Part shown: piece after piece, positions 4,301 through 33,716 of the stretch | Numbering within the stretch: position 1 is the stretch's first letter | Layout of the letters: each line of letters starts with the position of its first letter | Assembly: GCA_017616735.1 (NCBI GenBank) | Contig: JAFZXP010000075.1 | Span: 1 to 35,226 of the forward strand | Source of the DNA: Bacteroidales bacterium | Lineage (GTDB): Bacteria; Bacteroidota; Bacteroidia; Bacteroidales; F082 | Reading direction: 5' to 3' | DNA length: 35,226 nt | Translations under genes and position numbers: made by a program | The notes under the pieces: model-generated | What the model saw: the letters and a program-made list of their open reading frames with translations, nothing else | Told to the model about the DNA's origin: nothing | Databases searched by the model: none

Positions 4301-7300
4301 AGTCATGTTCTGGGTGTGGTATGGGCCGAAGTTGTGGTTGCTGTTCAGGGCGATTGCTCTGACTGCATTGTTCACGTTAGTCACGACAAAGCCGCCGTAG
4401 TTAGGAACCATGGCTCCTTCTTCTGAAGTCTGGTAGGTGATGGCCCAGGCTGTGTTGTCACCGCCTGTTGAGAAGTTGGTGCTGCTGGTGTAGCCGAGCA
4501 CTTCACCGGCGTGGTTGGTGAAGATGTAATTGCTGCCGTCGATTTCCACGGTCCAGAAGTAGATGCTGTCGGCGTCTGCGATTGTGGTCGGCAGAGTCTC
4601 GCCTGAGGCAGATGTGGCGCTGGTGAACAACACACCGGTTGGTTTGCCCGATGCCTGTGCTGTCATTGCATAATAGTCGTTGGCATTATCGTCGAAACGT
4701 GCAGCGAACACCACCTTCGAACCGTTGCTGATTTGTGAGAGATCGGTGATGCGGGTGTAGTTGCTTGGCTGCACCGGCTCAATCACGTCGCCGCTTACTT
4801 CAACTGATATCGTCTGAGCGCCTTCTGAGCTCATGGTTAAGCTTTCGGTGTATGTTCCGATTTCCAAACCGGCTTTAAGTCTGACATAGATGTGGATGTT
4901 GTTGAATGTGGCAGCTCCGCTGATTCTGATTGAGGTTTCAGGTGTGAAGTAATTGCCGCCCACTGATGAGATCTCGAAGTTTTCTGATGGATAGACATAA
5001 GCTGCGCCTGTGAGGTTGCTTGCACTCAAATCGAACGATTTGATTTGTGACGGGCCTTCGCCTTCCTGATAGCTGAAACCTGTCAAGCTGGTCGGGTTGG
5101 CCACCAGAGTAGGATACACAGGGTGTTCGAAGGTTACGTCGTCAGCGCTGTTGATGCGCAACTGTGGAGCGTTGTAGCATCCCAAAACACCGGTCACTGT
5201 CACGATGTCGTTTTCCAAAAGGCCTTCAACTGCAGGCATCTTGTAAAGGTTCAATGTGCTTTCGCCTTGTGTGATAGGGGTGTTGCCGCTTGTGTTGATA
5301 GTGCCAATTGTAGCCTCAACGATTTGTACGCGCGTCGACTGCAACATGTTGTCGCCTGCGTAGTCAGCCAAAATCTCGGCAATTGTCTTTACGGCCACAG
5401 GCAGTGTGTTGCCGTTTGAAACTATAACAAACTGGTTGGCGTCGTTGCCTTTGATTCCTGTGAGCTCGACAAGGCCGCTGTATGTTGTCTTCTTACCGTA
5501 TCCCATAACCATGTCACCAAGTGCCAAAGTTGCAGGAACGGTGTTGTTGTTAAGATAGAGGTCGATACCGGCTGTTTCGTCCTGTACGTAGACGTTGCGT
5601 CCGTCGATGAATGTCACAACACCCTGAACCAGAGCATATTGGTTGTTGGCCAAAGCTCTTGCGGCGGCTATTGTCATCTGCTCGACAATGGTGTAGGTGG
5701 CTGATGCGATTGAACTGTTGTTCATGCCTTCTTTTACAGCCATGGCCTTGATGGTGGCTGTAGCGTTCACTGCAATAGCCTCTGAGTAGACGTTGCTGTT
5801 GACTGTCGGATCTGTGCCATCGGTTGTGTAGTAAATTGTCGCACCCTCGGTGGCGCATGCCAAAGTCACCTGCTGGGCTGTGATGAATGTGCCGGCTGCA
5901 GGGGTGAAGGTAGGTGTTGCCACAGTTGCCAATTCAGTAAATGTTGCATTCACTGTGACATCAGAGGCTGGCATAACAAACTGCATCGTTGTCTGATTGA
6001 TGTTGGTTGTTGTGGTGCCGTATGTGTATGTCAAAGTTGACAACTCATATCCTGATGCAGGTTGAGCTGTCACTGTAATTGTGGCGCCTTCTTCAGCTGA
6101 TGTAGGAGCTGCTGTCACTGTACCATTGGTGATGCCTTCGGCGATGCTAACAGTGTAATATGTAGGTGTCGGTGGGGTAGGGACGTCACCTGCTTTGTAC
6201 AAGTAAACATCCAACTGACCGCTGCCATAGCATGAGAATGGAGAACCATTAGTGTTGAGTCTTATCCAGTTGCGGGTGTTGGTACCTTGTGCCTTGATGG
6301 TCGCAACGCCACTCGATTCGATTTCGATGGTCCACAATCCGTTGGCATCGTTTTCTGCCTGAACCTTCAAATAATTCGATGATGAACTTGCAGCATAGAG
6401 ATAACCCTCATTAACAGCATCATACAATGTCCACTTGCCGTCGGTCTGACCTAAGGTCAACTCAAAAACGCCGCCTTCATTGGTGGTTGCAGGTGTTAAT
6501 GTGATGACGTTTTCAACTGGGGTCACGTCGACAGACGGTCTGTTGTTTGTGCCTTGCTTGCCTAATGCCTTATAGTTTTCACCCTTGATACCTACGATGA
6601 TGTATTTATCGCCAGCAATCAAAGCGTTAGCATTGGTAATCAGCGTGTAAGCGGTTTCCTGTGCAGGTGGAGTAGGCTGTGTAATCTCATAAACTGCTGT
6701 GGCAATCTCGCTGTTGTTCATTCCCGACTTCACGGCCATTGCCTTCACTGTGGTGTTCTCACTGATGGCGATGGCAGCGGTATAGGTAGTGCTGTTTGCG
6801 GTTGGGTCAGTGCCATCCAAGGTGTAATGGATGGTAGCGCCTTCAGTAGCGCAAGCAATTGTAACGTTCTGTGCCTCGGTATATGTTCCTGCTGCTGGTG
6901 TGAATGTAGGTGTTGCAACGGTCTCTATTGGTGTAATAACTTCTTCAAAGTCATCAGCGCTACGTGGAGCGACCTGCTTTACAGAATTACCGCTCTGCCA
7001 ATAAACAATGTAAACGCCGTTGACGTTGTATTGCTTACCGCTTTCCAACGATGAAATTGGGTTAGGGTTGAGATTGAAGTTGTTGTAAGGTGTGATTGTG
7101 TTTTCTGAATTATCAACAAATGTCGAGCCATTGTATGTCAATGTACCCAAATTGACAGGAGTACCGTAGTTTCTCACTTCAAGAGCATTGATTGTTGTGG
7201 TTAAAGTTGGAACCTCTTGCCCAGATGTTACAGTCAAATCTGTTGCCTTAACGCCTGTAAGCTCCGCATAATGGTTTTGATACAGTAATGCGTTACAAAC

Positions 7301-28021: not shown

Positions 28022-28053
28022 CGGGATATAAACGCATAATGGGAATACAATAT

Positions 28054-29904
28054 ATGAAGAGAATCGTTTTACTGTCAGTCTTGATGATGCTTGTGGCTTG
28101 CTGCCACTCGCAGGAGAACCGCAAAAACCGTAAAGAAGCTGAGAAGTTTAAGGCCAATGCCGAATACTATTGTGGCGAGAGTGGGGAGTGTAAGAATCTG
28201 CAAAAGGCTGACGACGCCGCGGTGACGAGTCTGCTTGAGGCTATCTTTAACGACAAGACCTTGCAATGCCTGTATTTTGCCGACTCCGACTCTGACAACG
28301 ATGAGCAGCGGACCAGGGCTCTTGTGACTTTTAGAGACCAACTTAAGAAACAATCCACCGATCTGGTGCTCAACGATGCCAACGGCTCGGCCAAGGTGTT
28401 CAGGTATATCTCGAAGGCCGACTTCTCCCAAATGTGCGCGCAGAGAGAGAAGACCATCATCAATTACATAGCCGAGGGAAGATGTGCAGAGGAGAACCTG
28501 AAGTATGGCGTCGCCCTGCGTTATTATTACTGGGCTTTGATGCTCTGCTATTCGCATCCCAATGGCGCGAATCTTTACTACCAGTACGACAACCTCAACA
28601 GCTATCCGACGAGCAAGTGGCTGCATAGGCATATCGATGATGTGCTCAACAGCATAGCGATACAGCCAAGACGTCAGGAGAAGGCCGGCGACAATGAGTT
28701 TATATTGCAGATTACCAATGGCCATGACGGACTGGAAGGCTTGGATTTCTCATATAACAATGGCAATGGCTTGGCCAAAGGCTATACGCAAAACGGCTTA
28801 AGCTATATCAAAATGGTTGACAGCGACATGAGCGAAGTCGCCATATCAATTGATTTGGAGAATAAAACGATAGTAAAAGGCTTTGATTCAGAGGTTTATG
28901 CAATTATTGACAAGCTGGATGAGCAGATTTATTTTCCGAGTGCCAGAAAGGTTGTGAATATCGAAAAGGCCAAAAAAATAAAGAGCTTGGACGATGTCAA
29001 GACGCATTCCGATACTAAGGTCGGTGCCGAATTGGAACGATCCGAATTGTTTGTCAATGCCATGTCGTCGCCTCATGCCGAATATGCCAAGGTGATGAAT
29101 GATATCGAGAAGATATTGTCAAAAAAAGGCGATAGGAAAGCCGATGAGCTGGAGCCGTATTTCACCCCCGAGGGGATGACGCTGATGCGTAAGCTGCTCA
29201 GCTACGGCAAGGTGGGGGTGGTAGGCAAGCCGACATATTATTTCATAGATTTCCGCGATGAGGTTATATGCCGCGCAATACCTATGCGGTTTGACTTTTC
29301 GCACAATGTCAGCTTCTTGCGCGACATAGTGTTCCGTTTCGATCCCAAGACTAAAAAGGTGAAGTCTATAGCCTTCCGCAATTCGGATATCACTGAAAGC
29401 CAGATATTTAACAAGGAATTGTGGTCGAAAGACGCAAGGTTGACGCTGATCAATTTCCTCGAAGACTATCAAACGGCCTATGCTTTGCAGCGTAAGGATT
29501 ATCTGCAGCAGGTGTATTCGGAAAGCGCCCTTATCGTCGTTGGCTCGGTGCTGAAGGAGACGAAGAAGAGTGATAACTTCCGCATGAAGCAGGAGGTGAA
29601 GATCAAGTATGACACACTGTCGAAAAGCCAGTATCTGACAAGGCTCAACCGTGTGTTCGACAATAACGAGTTTGTCAACCTGAGCTTCTCGAATACCAAT
29701 TTCAACACTGTAAGCGGCAAACAGAACGTGATAGGCGTGCAGCTGCGGCAGGAGTACTTCTCGAGCAGCTACAGCGATGTCGGCTATCTGTTCCTGATGG
29801 TTGACTTGCGCGACAAGCTGCCGGTTATTCATGTCAGAACATGGCAGCCTAATGAGACGCCGGTTAACGAGCTTATCGACAACACTTCTTTTATATTCCA
29901 ATGA
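28054..29904 (+). CDS. Putative lipoprotein with NTF2-like C-terminal region
   Basis: 616 residues. The N-terminus MKRIVLLSVLMMLVACCHSQ carries a lipobox (LVAC), so it is probably a lipoprotein. An ATG five codons earlier is possible, but the signal peptide begins at MKR. The N-terminal third is helical with Cys residues (EYYCGESGECKNLQ) and a helical-repeat-like stretch. From about residue 470, the pattern LINFLEDYQTAYALQRKDYL followed by QQVYSESALIVVGSVL matches the start of NTF2-like folds, and the end (YLFLMVDLRDKLPVIHVRTWQP) fits its last strands. I do not recognise the rest. It lies 48 nt upstream of the PEGA/FGE-like gene with no clear promoter between, so the two are likely co-expressed and may act together at the cell envelope (inference). 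Confidence 0.65.
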   Translation: MKRIVLLSVLMMLVACCHSQENRKNRKEAEKFKANAEYYCGESGECKNLQKADDAAVTSLLEAIFNDKTLQCLYFADSDSDNDEQRTRALVTFRDQLKKQSTDLVLNDANGSAKVFRYISKADFSQMCAQREKTIINYIAEGRCAEENLKYGVALRYYYWALMLCYSHPNGANLYYQYDNLNSYPTSKWLHRHIDDVLNSIAIQPRRQEKAGDNEFILQITNGHDGLEGLDFSYNNGNGLAKGYTQNGLSYIKMVDSDMSEVAISIDLENKTIVKGFDSEVYAIIDKLDEQIYFPSARKVVNIEKAKKIKSLDDVKTHSDTKVGAELERSELFVNAMSSPHAEYAKVMNDIEKILSKKGDRKADELEPYFTPEGMTLMRKLLSYGKVGVVGKPTYYFIDFRDEVICRAIPMRFDFSHNVSFLRDIVFRFDPKTKKVKSIAFRNSDITESQIFNKELWSKDARLTLINFLEDYQTAYALQRKDYLQQVYSESALIVVGSVLKETKKSDNFRMKQEVKIKYDTLSKSQYLTRLNRVFDNNEFVNLSFSNTNFNTVSGKQNVIGVQLRQEYFSSSYSDVGYLFLMVDLRDKLPVIHVRTWQPNETPVNELIDNTSFIFQ

Positions 29905-29952: not shown

Positions 29953-31821
29953 ATGAAAAGACATATATTACTATCAGTATTTGTTTTGCTTGGATTGGTT
30001 GCATTTGCCCAGAGTCCATTGAAAATGGTGAGTTTTCATAAGAACCCTGATGAGATTGTTGATTTTAGGGAACTTAAGGAGAAAGCCGGCCGCGACTCTG
30101 ATTTGGACGGCAACAAGGCGGCGAGGATCAGGATTAAGGCACAAGGCTTCGACGAGAAGAAGATGCTTGACTTCACCGTGTTTCCGCGTCCGGGAATGGA
30201 AGTGATATACAAAGAGTTTCAGCAGGGCGAGATGTGGGTTTACGTCTCTTCCAAGGTTCAGGGTACTCTGGTGATAAAATACATGGGTGAGTTTGAGTTC
30301 AAACTGCCCAACAAACTCGAACCCAAGTGCGGCTATGATTTGGTGCTGGGCATGGAGACGGCGACTTTGGTGATAAGCACCATCCCTTCGGATGCCGAGA
30401 TTTTTGTCGACGGCAAGAAGGTGGGCACAGGCTACGGCAGCGCCGCCATATCGGTGGGCAGCGAGCATCGTTACAAGGTGTCGCGCGATTATTATATCCC
30501 TGAGGAAGACGTGGTTAAGTCTGACGAGGCGGTGAAGATTACGAAGCAGATAGAGCTTAGGCCCAATTTCAGTTATATCACGATAAAGACCGAACCCAGC
30601 GGAGCTGATATTTATATCGACGGCAAGAAAGTCGGCATCACACCCTATCTGTCGGAGATGATAGAGTTCGGCCGCAGAAGGGTGGAGCTGAAGAAAAGCG
30701 GCTACGAGCCATACGTTAAGGTGGTGACGATAAAACCTGAGGAAGAGGAAAACACGCAGCTCGCCAACGTGAAGCTCGAGGCGGTGCGAGTCCCGATGGG
30801 AAGCATGGAACTGACGTCCAATCCAACGGGCGCGGTGATAACCATCAACGGCCGCCAATACGGACAGACGCCTAAGACCTTGACCGACCTGGAAGTGGGA
30901 ACCTACACTGTCTATTTCTCGAAGGAAGGCTATCAGAACCTCTCTCAGACCGTAACAGTGAAAGATGGCCAGAAAGAGACTCTGGCGGTGACCATGACCA
31001 AGGCCAGTGTCACTCAGCAGCCGGTGCCGACGACGCCAATGGCGACAAGTGGTTCTACAAATGGAATAAGCACGACAACAGCATCTGGCAACCGTATCTT
31101 CACCGTGAACGGCGTTTCGTTTGAGATGGTGGCGGTAAAAGGAGGTACGTTTACGATGGGAGGAACTTTAGAACAAGGAAGTGAGGCTGAAAGTGACGAG
31201 AAACCTACACATAGTGTGACTTTGAGCGACTACTACATTGGAAAATTCGAGGTGACACAAGAGCTTTGGTATGCTGTTATGGGAACTACTATAAAACAAC
31301 AGCGCGACAAAGCCAATACGTCATGGCCAATGAGAGGAGAAGGGAACAATTACCCGATGTATTACATAAGTTGGAACGAGTGTCAGGAATTCATTACAAA
31401 ACTTAATCAGAAGACAGGAGCTAACTTTAGGCTTCCTACGGAGGCTGAGTGGGAATACGCTGCGAGAGGAGGGAACAAGAGTAACGGTTACAAATTCAGC
31501 GGCAGCAATAGTATTGACAATGTTGCGTGGTACACAAGTAACAGCGGAAGCATGACACATCCTGTCGGGACGAAATCGCCTAATGAACTCGGTATCTACG
31601 ACATGACAGGCAATGTTTGGGAGTGGTGTCAGGATTGGTATGGGAACTACAGCAGTGGCAGTCAGACAAACCCAACAGGGCCTTCTACTGGCTCGAGCCG
31701 CGTGAATCGTGGCGGTAGCTGGGGCGACAACGCCAAGTACTGCCGAGTGTCGAGTCGCAATCGACTAGTCCCGATTATCGCTTCATCACTTCTGGGCTTC
31801 CGCCTCGTTCTAGTCCGATAG
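29953..31821 (+). CDS. PEGA-domain protein with FGE-sulfatase/C-type lectin-fold head; likely DGR target
   Basis: 622 residues. Signal peptide 1-19 (ending AFA). An N-terminal domain (20-135) is shared with the gene at 33964. Three PEGA domains follow: about 137-205 (IPSDAEIFVDGKKVGTG), 207-275 (TEPSGADIYIDGKKVGITPY) and 283-350. A Thr/Ser/Pro-rich linker leads to a formylglycine-generating-enzyme-like domain (389-622): MVAVKGGTFTMGG, RLPTEAEWEYAARGG, GNVWEWCQDWYGNY, RVNRGGSWGDNAKYCRVSSRN and GFRLVLVR. Of the two FGE active-site Cys, only the second aligns (Cys597); the first position is Asp592, so formylglycine synthesis is unlikely. The end matches the architecture of DGR variable proteins, in which this fold displays variable residues before GFRL. 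It is probably exported and surface-facing, with PEGA repeats as a stalk; ligand unknown. Confidence 0.85.
   Translation: MKRHILLSVFVLLGLVAFAQSPLKMVSFHKNPDEIVDFRELKEKAGRDSDLDGNKAARIRIKAQGFDEKKMLDFTVFPRPGMEVIYKEFQQGEMWVYVSSKVQGTLVIKYMGEFEFKLPNKLEPKCGYDLVLGMETATLVISTIPSDAEIFVDGKKVGTGYGSAAISVGSEHRYKVSRDYYIPEEDVVKSDEAVKITKQIELRPNFSYITIKTEPSGADIYIDGKKVGITPYLSEMIEFGRRRVELKKSGYEPYVKVVTIKPEEEENTQLANVKLEAVRVPMGSMELTSNPTGAVITINGRQYGQTPKTLTDLEVGTYTVYFSKEGYQNLSQTVTVKDGQKETLAVTMTKASVTQQPVPTTPMATSGSTNGISTTTASGNRIFTVNGVSFEMVAVKGGTFTMGGTLEQGSEAESDEKPTHSVTLSDYYIGKFEVTQELWYAVMGTTIKQQRDKANTSWPMRGEGNNYPMYYISWNECQEFITKLNQKTGANFRLPTEAEWEYAARGGNKSNGYKFSGSNSIDNVAWYTSNSGSMTHPVGTKSPNELGIYDMTGNVWEWCQDWYGNYSSGSQTNPTGPSTGSSRVNRGGSWGDNAKYCRVSSRNRLVPIIASSLLGFRLVLVR
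31699..31818 (+). other. Candidate DGR variable region (VR)
   Basis: Covers codons 583-622. Invariant-looking parts are RVNRGGSW at the start and LGFRLVLVR at the end, the latter encoded by CTGGGCTTCCGCCTCGTTC, which would be the place for an initiation-of-homing sequence. Between them, codons 591-593, 595-596, 601 and 604-613 are a run of unlike codons (GGC GAC .. AAG TAC .. CGA CTA GTC .. ATT ATC GCT TCA TCA CTT) where related proteins usually have Asn-rich (AAC/AAT) stretches. GTC, ATC, GCT, ATT and CTT could each arise from AAC or AAT by changes at A only. No template repeat is present in the window to compare with. Confidence 0.6.
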
Positions 31822-31892
31822 TTTAACTCCGGAAATAAAATCCGCATTGACTTAAGCTGAAAGAGAAGCACAGGATAACTTGGAATGAAACA

Positions 31893-31918
31893 GACTCGAG
31901 CGAGGGACGAGCCGAGTC
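31893..31918 (+). other. GC-rich hairpin downstream of the candidate VR
   Basis: GACTCG-A-GC (31893-31901) pairs with GCCGAGTC (31911-31918) with one bulged A and a 9-nt loop; no T run follows, so it is not a typical terminator. It lies 75 bp after the VR. Several DGRs have a hairpin or cruciform just 3' of VR that aids homing; whether this is one is inference. The remaining DNA to the KilA-N promoter shows nothing else I recognise. Confidence 0.5.
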
Positions 31919-32061
31919 GTTGAAAGGAAAGGAATCCGGTGCGAAAAATAAAAAACATAGAAACTTCGGTTTGGGGTGACTTAAGGCATTGATACTGAAT
32001 GTTTTATTTTTTGTAGAAAAGATTAGCCGTTTTTCATACGACTAATTCTTTGGTGTGGTTG

Positions 32062-32095: not shown

Positions 32096-32902
32096 ATGGC
32101 AAAAATTACAGTTAAAGACGTTGATGTCACGGTTTTAAAGATTAATGAGAATGATTACATATCATTAACTGATATTGCGAAATCCAGAGATGCAGTAAGG
32201 ACTGATTATATATTGCAAAACTGGATGCGTATACGAAACACGATAGAATTTCTTGGACTATGGGAAATATTCTATAATCCAAGTTTTAACCCCATCGAAT
32301 TCGATGGGTTTAGATTGGCAAGTGGTTCAAATACATTTTCCCTAACACCAAAAAGATGGATAGAGTCGACCAATGCCATTGGAATAGTATCACGAAGCGG
32401 ACGATATGGCGGGACATTTGCTCATAGAGACATTGCTTTTGAATTTGCTACATGGGTGAGTTCTGAATTTAAATTTTATCTCATAACTGAATATCAACGA
32501 TTAAAGGCTGATGAGAATAAACGAAACGAATGGAGCGCAAAGCGTGACCTGGCAAAAATAAACTATTATATCCACACCAGTGCCATCAGTCGGAATCTCA
32601 TACCGGCGAGATTGAACAAACAACAGATCAATTATATCTATGCTTCGGAAGCTGACGTTTTGAATATGGCGTTGTTTGGCATGACTGCTAAGGAATGGCG
32701 TGAACAGAATCCAGAGTTACAAGGTAATATGCGGGATTATGCGGAAATCAAGCAATTGATATGCCTGTCGAATCTCGAAAATCTCAACTCGGTATTGATA
32801 AACGACGGTATGCCGCAAAATGAGCGGCTGGAAAAACTTAACCAGATAGCGATACAACAGATGACGTTGATTGAAAACACCGGAACCAAGCTGTTGGAGT
32901 AG
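32096..32902 (+). CDS. KilA-N domain-containing protein
   Basis: 268 residues, no signal peptide. The N-terminal ~130 residues match KilA-N, a putative DNA-binding domain of phage and large-virus proteins: ENDYISLTDIAKSRDA, LQNWMRIRNTIEFLGLWE, FDGFRLASGSNTFSLTPKRW, then SGRYGGTFAHRDIAFEFATW and FYLITEYQRLK. The C-terminal half (YIHTSAISRNLIPARLNKQQ, YASEADVLNMALFGMTAKEW) is the region usual in Bacteroidetes and Firmicutes chromosomal members. These proteins are common in mobile and defence-rich regions; cellular role unknown. It has its own promoter and sits between two PEGA paralogues, next to a toxin-antitoxin pair. Confidence 0.9.
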   Translation: MAKITVKDVDVTVLKINENDYISLTDIAKSRDAVRTDYILQNWMRIRNTIEFLGLWEIFYNPSFNPIEFDGFRLASGSNTFSLTPKRWIESTNAIGIVSRSGRYGGTFAHRDIAFEFATWVSSEFKFYLITEYQRLKADENKRNEWSAKRDLAKINYYIHTSAISRNLIPARLNKQQINYIYASEADVLNMALFGMTAKEWREQNPELQGNMRDYAEIKQLICLSNLENLNSVLINDGMPQNERLEKLNQIAIQQMTLIENTGTKLLE

Positions 32903-33073: not shown

Positions 33074-33379
33074 CTACTTAACAATTTCGATCCTCAAACC
33101 TAGAGCGCTGATAATGCTGTATATGGTTGAGATTGTCGGGTCAATCAGGCCATTTTCAATTCGCGAGATGTAGCTTTTGTTGGCCCCAATGCGCTTGCCA
33201 AGTTCGGTTTGTGATATATTCTCCTCTTTTCTTGCATCACGAATAAGTCGTCCCATATAATAAGCATAAGCTTTATTGCGGAACTCTGTTCTTTCGGGTG
33301 ATCCGACTATACCGTATCTGGCATCTAAAACTTCATCATAACTGTGAAGCATTCCTTTCTCTGTATTCATAGTATTCAT
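33074..33379 (-). CDS. HigA-type antitoxin, XRE family HTH
   Basis: 101 residues (98 if the second ATG at 33370 is used). A helix-turn-helix of the Cro/CI type covers about 55-95: ENISQTELGKRIGANKSYISR then IENGLIDPTISTIYSIISALG. The N-terminal part probably contacts the toxin. It is the second gene of a toxin-first pair and overlaps the toxin's end by 35-44 bp, as expected for translational coupling. It is expected to neutralise the toxin and repress the shared promoter. Confidence 0.88.
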   Translation of the reverse strand: MNTMNTEKGMLHSYDEVLDARYGIVGSPERTEFRNKAYAYYMGRLIRDARKEENISQTELGKRIGANKSYISRIENGLIDPTISTIYSIISALGLRIEIVK

Positions 33380-33683
33380 TTTTAATTCTTATCGCTTTTT
33401 CAATTTCTTTAACAGGTGTTTTCTGTGATTTCTTTTTAAATCCATTGAATAAAACAACAATATTGCCTTTGTCAAAAACAAAAAACACCCTGTAAATGTT
33501 GCCTTCCCATTCAATGCGAAGTTCAAACAAACCGTCTTTGATATGCTTGATGAATTTCGGATTTAATCTTTCACCCCTTTTTAACATGTCAAGCACATAA
33601 TCAACTTTTTCTCTTGCGGAGTTATTTAAAGATTTTATAAAGTTCTTAAAATAATCCCCATAATAAACCAGTCTTCTTTCCAT
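33336..33683 (-). CDS. HigB/RelE-like toxin (phage Gp49-like family)
   Basis: 115 residues from the ATG at 33683. The core GLFELRIEWEGNIYRVFFVF followed by DKGNIVVLFNGFKKKSQKTP and a C-terminal EIEKAIRIKNEY helix are typical of the Gp49-like/HigB group of RelE-superfamily mRNA interferases, which cut mRNA on the ribosome. The TTG two codons earlier is excluded because it lies inside the -7 promoter box (33687-33694). That box ends 3 nt before the ATG, so the transcript may be leaderless. The antitoxin gene follows with overlap. Confidence 0.88.
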   Translation of the reverse strand: MERRLVYYGDYFKNFIKSLNNSAREKVDYVLDMLKRGERLNPKFIKHIKDGLFELRIEWEGNIYRVFFVFDKGNIVVLFNGFKKKSQKTPVKEIEKAIRIKNEYYEYRERNASQL

Positions 33684-33686
33684 TGG

Positions 33687-33716
33687 CAAAAATACAAAAG
33701 TTTCAATATATTACAA
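33687..33716 (-). promoter_or_regulatory. Promoter of the toxin-antitoxin pair
   Basis: Minus-strand TTG (33714-33716), 19 bp, TATTTTTG (33687-33694), then CCA and the ATG. A full match to the Bacteroidetes promoter form with almost no room for a leader. Confidence 0.75.

Follow-up and report, generated by a model that had tools for sequence, protein, structure and literature searches.

The C-terminal end of the PEGA-FGE protein P0001 is very probably a DGR-type variable region (VR), carried on a head of the FGE/TvpA type and once diversified by an HRDC-type DGR whose reverse transcriptase (RT) and template repeat (TR) are now elsewhere or lost. The window analysed here is the whole of contig C44, a stretch of 35,226 bases, and its features are collected in Table 1. 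An earlier note on this DNA had proposed a DGR target, and as to its kind that proposal holds: the VR, once frame-corrected, fits the templates of related DGRs at non-A bases, the protein joins an FGE/TvpA head to a PEGA stalk, and RT and TR lie beside the heads of same-genus relatives. Likewise, the placing of a DGR-type variable region at the end of a PEGA/FGE-like protein is borne out by Pfam matches to PEGA and FGE-sulfatase, by the match to TvpA and by homology to DGRs of the same genus.

The target protein and its genomic neighborhood

P0001 matches the Pfam families PEGA and FGE-sulfatase (the latter at 4.4e-50, residues 391-619), its N-terminus resembles a signal peptide by eye, and it is probably a PEGA-stalked, surface-exposed protein. 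The position in its head that we take to be the first of the FGE active-site cysteine pair is probably not occupied by cysteine. By sequence, the best solved relative is TvpA of Treponema denticola (2y3c, E 6.4e-42); PvdO and formylglycine-generating enzymes follow at a wide distance, with E about 1e-25. The tail that the earlier note had pointed out in the region 31699-31818 is present there and reads RVNRGGSW-GDNAKYCRVSSRNRLVPIIASSLL-GFRLVLVR-stop. The spacer between RGGSW and GFR is 24 residues long (591-614; DNA 31723-31794, the start taken from coordinates and the end counted), and the variable stretch starts directly after RGGSW. Like DGR targets of the TvpA/FGE type, P0001 carries its VR at the C-terminal end of a C-type-lectin/FGE head, and a changed loop of this head would be displayed at the cell surface by the PEGA stalk.

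Table 1. Features of the window around the target gene.
Feature	Position	Strand	Basis
Upstream neighbor P0002, no Pfam family	28039-29904	+	31% identity, E 4e-88 to an open reading frame of L032
Target gene P0001, 622 aa, PEGA stalk and C-terminal FGE/C-type-lectin head	29953-31821	+	Open reading frame, Pfam, match to 2y3c
Probable DGR-type VR, variable codons on a fixed scaffold	31690-31821	+	DNA match to same-genus TRs and VRs, tail profile
Inferred -1 shift (one base fewer than in relatives and templates), exact place uncertain	31761-31766	+	MAFFT, DGR-aware alignment, gap-pair test
Codons apparently read out of frame; P D Y R F I T in the alternative frame	31770-31790	+	11.6 versus 1.9 bits over six spacer codons
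Inferred +1 shift restoring GFRLVLVR, exact place uncertain	31785-31791	+	MAFFT, DGR-aware alignment, gap-pair test
Element X, VR-side flank; its reverse complement lies 3' of the TR in relatives	31821-31857	+	Flank alignments, MAFFT
Large imperfect palindrome (outer arms 31868-31876 and 31934-31942)	31866-31950	+	z -4.7, 0 of 200 shuffles fold as well
KilA-N gene, where L032 has HRDC, RT and TR	32096-32902	+	Pfam KilA-N 1.2e-17
HTH and Gp49-like gene pair, toxin-antitoxin-like	33074-33689	-	Pfam
Second PEGA-stalk paralogue P0003, cut by the contig end	33964-35226	+	No FGE match in the part present

The order of genes upstream and at the target is shared with L032, a complete DGR of the same genus, in which a P0002 homologue (31% identity) and a target homologue (41%) are followed by HRDC, RT and TR. 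No avd or HRDC accessory gene was found beside the target in the window, and the KilA-N, HTH and Gp49-like genes come next instead. The stalk of P0003 matches that of P0001 at 65% over 280 aa. The palindrome downstream of the target has a centre that occurs once in the window's own assembly at up to 3 mismatches and is conserved in another genome of the genus, G081, and one pair of its outer arms differs on both sides, being G-C in G081 and A-T in the window (by eye).

Relation of the variable region to templates of complete DGRs

We searched 99 same-genus genomes, the window's own included, with the DNA of positions 31640-31830, and obtained VR matches in 20 of them, again including its own. 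Six of these 20 (G002, G008, G022, G029, G041 and G076) encode an RT of the FGE-type DGR family at E <1e-80, with an adjoining AAC-rich TR. The complete DGRs of the genus consist of an FGE-tail target, an RT with IGNLTSQ and YMDD motifs, and the AAC-rich template. Cognate VR/TR pairs were available at 10 loci: eight complete HRDC-type DGRs from these six genomes (L032, L033, L034, L035, L036, L041, L042 and L057), and L176 and L187, added from a set of 80 loci. In the 11 resulting comparisons (L176 has two VRs), 12-19 of the 30-35 template A positions are changed as against 0-1 of the 67-72 other bases, with L034 and L041 requiring a gap (DGR-aware alignment). Such A-directed changes are the DGR signature and show that this DGR family has worked in this genus. 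An HRDC protein of 149-160 aa adjoins the RT in all 10 loci (Pfam E 2e-6 or better), and the template begins no more than 30 bases past the RT frame in eight of them; in L187 it overlaps the end of the RT open frame and in L057 it precedes the RT. The complete same-genus DGRs resemble the window in their head, VR pattern and 3' flank, and L032 in its upstream gene as well, but they carry HRDC, RT and TR, all three of which are missing from the window.

For a profile of the tail, 103 distinct FGE tails with a 24-residue spacer were taken from 111 tails in the loci; this set is uncleaned, at least two of its members (L048 and L049) being non-DGR tails and another (L187) a translated TR. Across it, near-fixed A, C, R, V, S, R, P and R alternate with high-entropy positions. 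Compared with 10 templates, the window shows an average non-A mismatch of 22% after correction for the frameshift described below, and 30% without it. The corresponding value for other VRs against foreign TRs is 20% (72 comparisons, the VRs of L034 and L041 left out), while three non-DGR FGE tails reach 41-47% in an ungapped comparison. Since the corrected fit of the window is about that of other VRs to foreign templates, we conclude that the segment is a DGR-type VR.

The two halves of the VR differ in this respect. Over the first 60 columns, mean mismatch between window and templates is 34% at A and 15% at other bases, as compared with 49% and 18% for other VRs against foreign templates (72 comparisons). 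In the second half, mean non-A mismatch amounts to 54% in the present frame and to 35% after frame correction (41% with the gap placement of MAFFT), so that an excess remains over the 23% of other VRs against foreign templates. A fixed scaffold with variation at template A is found in both halves, in the second only after frame correction and less well than in other VRs. It is very improbable that P0001 is an ordinary FGE-domain protein which has no DGR history and whose variable stretch arose by divergence of a loop. FGE domains are indeed common, and further FGE loci in the window's own genome have tails that are not VR-like, but the window DNA is nearer to DGR templates than are the three non-DGR FGE tails, the VR-side flank X is kept, and the tail pattern is that of the family.

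An apparent compensated frameshift within the variable region

The earlier note had read the unlike codons 591-613 as one variable stretch. The spacer at 591-614 is indeed variable, but codons 604-613 appear to be unlike the family mainly because they are read out of frame, through a compensated shift. Judged by alignment and profile, about ten VR codons seem to be translated in a shifted frame, with the GFRLVLVR anchor intact. The alternative frame, PDYRFIT, has the P and the R that the family conserves, and against the profile of other tails it scores 11.6 bits over six codons, versus 1.9 in the present frame. In the present frame, the P is followed by I, I and A at positions usually held by D/G, Y/S and R, and these residues are found there in 0, 2 and 1 of 102 other tails. 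Only two of the 103 tails prefer the -1 frame, namely the window (gain 9.7 bits) and L181 (9.8 bits). A +1 reading gains in three (L175 by 3.7 bits, L020 by 0.5 and L181 by 0.3), indicating that small gains arise by chance. When one gap pair was allowed, the gain of the window was the largest of all 103 tails (5.3 mismatches; next 3.2, median 1.3), and MAFFT, given the DNA of the window, of the G081 gene and of a second VR-type gene from the window's own genome (on contig C6), placed unprompted a gap and an extra base in the window at these two shift sites. The FGE tail of L181 (Prevotellaceae RUG330), the middle of which fits the family better at -1, is perhaps another compensated VR frameshift.

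One of the two shifts may have been made by template slippage during reverse transcription, or by drift after loss of the machinery, and the other would have been kept by selection for an intact C-terminus. Slippage of the DGR RT is discussed, for indels in multiples of three, in a part of a 2026 paper (PMC12875486). We consider it unlikely that assembly of a mixed VR population created the frameshift pair artificially and that the real gene reads PDYRFIT in frame. The named relatives are nearly all metagenome assemblies, a type liable to such errors, and the VR of G029 (L041) is likewise +1 relative to its template; however, two exactly compensating errors that leave an open frame are improbable, and the Prevotellaceae record L181 seems to contain such a pair too.

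Inverted flanks of variable region and template

In HRDC-type DGRs of this order, the roughly 35 bp 3' of the VR recur in reverse complement 3' of the TR, pair by pair, an apparently new feature. This rule was first noticed in the initial ten loci. The inverted alignment of the two flanks beats all 300 shuffles in nine of them (L032, L033, L034, L035, L036, L041, L042, L057 and L187), L176 being the only one that does not exceed its shuffles, and direct alignment yields scores of 7-10. The flanks vary between DGRs, and the cognate TR flank ranks first for nine of the ten VRs and second for L187. The cognate score averages 18.9 versus 9.1 for swapped pairs, and none of 100000 permutations is as good.

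We extended the set by searching 393 genomes of the order. On a first pass, 17 new loci entered and 10 had a VR/TR pair, of which five (L217, L218, L219, L221 and L224) exceeded the 99th percentile of their shuffles; because the flank start had often been placed too far downstream, the boundary rule was altered after that result. L229 and L230 were dropped before the extended test (no RT motif; no pair). The extended set comprised 25 loci, 20 of them with a pair and 10 of these new. In 17 of the 20 the best-ranked flank is the cognate one; overall means are 17.45 versus 7.5 and, again, 0 of 100000 permutations are as good. L036 and L187, whose flanks are similar to each other, rank second, and L041 ranks 17th because its boundary was placed inside the VR (an earlier run gave 17 against a null maximum of 14); the boundaries of L034 and L228 are doubtful as well. 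All 500 shuffles are beaten in 14 of the 20 loci, seven of which are among the 10 new ones (L214, L215, L217, L218, L221, L224 and L227). An HRDC gene lies beside the RT in 19 of the 20, and L219 has none in the frame tested.

The Bordetella phage BPP-1 DGR likewise has an A-directed VR ending a C-type-lectin protein and a recognition element just downstream. That element is a cis hairpin (PMC3240598), in which we found an 8-bp GC stem, whereas the element of HRDC-type loci has its reverse complement 3' of the TR. No GC-rich cis hairpin like that of phage DGRs is present in the VR flanks of HRDC-type loci: depending on the locus, perfect cis stems in the 20 reach at most 3-7 bp, the one of 7 bp being A/T-rich, as against BPP-1, VHML and L060, whose stems measure 8, 7 and 6 bp and enclose loops of 3-4. 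In the prophage DGR of the window's own genome, described below, cis stems do not exceed 4 bp. Six phage-type control loci were taken, of which four had a VR/TR pair and two (p00 and cr60_1) had none; their flanks were 60 bases long and all others 50. Inverted-flank scores in these controls were 8 for VHML (226 of 500 shuffles), 8 for L060 (91 of 500), 5 for the own prophage (480 of 500) and 13 for BPP-1, which is reached by 8 of 500 shuffles and is a weak signal against a clean split between phage-type and HRDC-type DGRs.

Element X of the window is nearly identical to that of the G081 gene and gives its highest score (16) against the L042 TR flank, and about 100 bp of 3' flank are nearly the same in the window and G081. 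The window accordingly has a VR-side 3' recognition flank like those of related DGR targets. Four of the 99 same-genus genomes contain an X-type pattern, which is in VR orientation in the window's own genome and G081, and without TR context in G013 and G082 (by eye); with up to 3 mismatches allowed, the own assembly contains X only once. The inverted flank is not described in the examined parts of PMC3240598, PMC3521204, PMC8144416, PMC4891356, PMC6642488, PMC12875486, PMC4372165, PMC10743442 and PMC10907252; the 2018 NAR survey or other reports may have it.

We tentatively suggest, with slightly more doubt than assurance, that HRDC-type DGRs of this order find their targets via a split, trans-acting inverted repeat in place of the cis hairpin of phages. 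Alongside the VR, single-stranded target DNA would serve as docking site for the template RNA (or cDNA), which has a 3' flank complementary to X, and mutated cDNA would then take the place of the VR. The opposite orientation of the flank at the TR would keep the template from serving as a target.

Search for the machinery in the window's own genome

The assembly to which the window belongs comprises 2,079,695 bases in 78 contigs and is 80.5% complete. No DGR-type RT is present in the window, that is, in the whole of its contig, which agrees with the statement of the earlier note that none lies nearby. That note had placed the template repeat and RT outside the window or in trans, and neither a TR, a cognate RT nor an HRDC accessory gene was recovered from the assembly at its 80.5% completeness. 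The search of these 2.08 Mb for a near-copy of the VR, by which the template was to be found, gave none: the VR query and X return only themselves. A loose template pattern gave 12 matches, each with one mismatch, compared with 14 for its backward control. The proposed search for a DGR-type RT did reveal one such enzyme, and it is not the cognate one. This sole RT match, 34% identical and of a prophage-type DGR, lies on contig C15 (L102, reverse strand, about 5000-6900) and has its own VR/TR pair with 21 of 22 mismatches at A, by which it is ruled out as the enzyme of P0001. A weak match to the HRDC accessory gene (28% identity, HRDC part only) was also rejected; it lies inside a 751-aa frame that is perhaps RecQ. 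Viral contigs gave 0 exact matches to one template string. The earlier note had tied the rejection of its reading to a complete genome; since the assembly is only 80.5% complete, these absences do not amount to that.

The own genome contains a second VR-type PEGA-FGE gene on contig C6 (L100, 735-2576), a contig without RT. By eye, this gene lies downstream of rpoC and a small gene; it is followed by DUF5618 (Pfam) and then, again by eye, by an apparent transposase start at the contig end. Its non-A mismatch to templates is 26%, and element X is absent. Two PEGA-FGE genes on contig C69 were considered as VRs and rejected as not VR-like by eye.

Heads without a nearby RT are common, given that 77 of 80 loci of related heads lack an RT with this motif in the flanking sequence covered and that 14 of the 20 VR-bearing same-genus genomes are without an FGE-type RT at E <1e-80. 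In G078 (L004/L037), listed as 100% complete, there are two tandem VR-type genes whose tails, compared by eye, differ in the first two bases of variable codons and nowhere else.

Relic or remote target

The VR of P0001 would have been diversified by an HRDC-type DGR whose RT and TR either lie in the roughly 20% of the genome that is unassembled and act in trans, or have been lost, in which case P0001 would be an orphan target. We favor loss of the machinery over a remote and active DGR, although our confidence in loss is evenly poised. According to this preferred reading P0001 is a relic target that has lost its DGR core and has a drifting VR, with the frameshift pair as one sign of this decay. 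The KilA-N gene occupies the site of HRDC, RT and TR in L032, most VR-bearing genomes of the genus are without the RT as noted above, and the second-half non-A mismatch exceeds that of other VRs even when frame-corrected. In T. denticola, target genes are also found in isolates lacking RT and TR and are thought to be leftovers, as stated in a part of PMC4891356. On the other hand, the first-half non-A mismatch of 15% is not above that of other VRs against foreign templates (18%), the frame and C-terminal anchor are kept, and the genome is incomplete.

That a complete HRDC-type DGR in the unassembled part of the genome still rewrites the VR in trans, the shifted frame being a recent variant, is possible but on the whole doubtful. 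The incompleteness of the assembly leaves room for such a DGR, heads without a nearby RT are common, X and the 3' flank shared with G081 are kept, and trans diversification is reported for another bacterium in a part of PMC10907252. However, the own assembly has neither a TR nor a second copy of X, G081, which shares X, also has no RT match, and neither has G078 with its two tandem VR-type genes.

Among known systems, the TvpA DGR of T. denticola has an FGE-type C-type-lectin head with a C-terminal VR, as in the window. The window differs from it by its PEGA stalk and compensated VR frameshift, and the window's relatives by their HRDC accessory gene and by flank X with its inverted TR copy, the comparison covering the flanks of these relatives alone. 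The incomplete or trans DGR loci of Thiohalocapsa PB-PSB1 have targets away from RT or TR, like the window; at two of those loci a remote template matches all non-A sites, as described in a part of PMC10907252, whereas none was found for the window.

DGR targets that are separated from their RT are easily missed, and a part of PMC8144416 acknowledges that its own survey would not detect remote targets. The compensated VR frameshifts of the window and, probably, of L181 suggest that loop sequences beyond the reach of A-to-N changes are accessible to such proteins. If HRDC-type DGRs do recognize their targets by a split inverted repeat, the window, which keeps the VR half, would remain accessible to any DGR with the matching half, even after loss of its own core. 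With an address element readable beside the VR, remote targets could be identified and assigned to their DGR from sequence alone, and direct tests of target recognition would become feasible outside phages.
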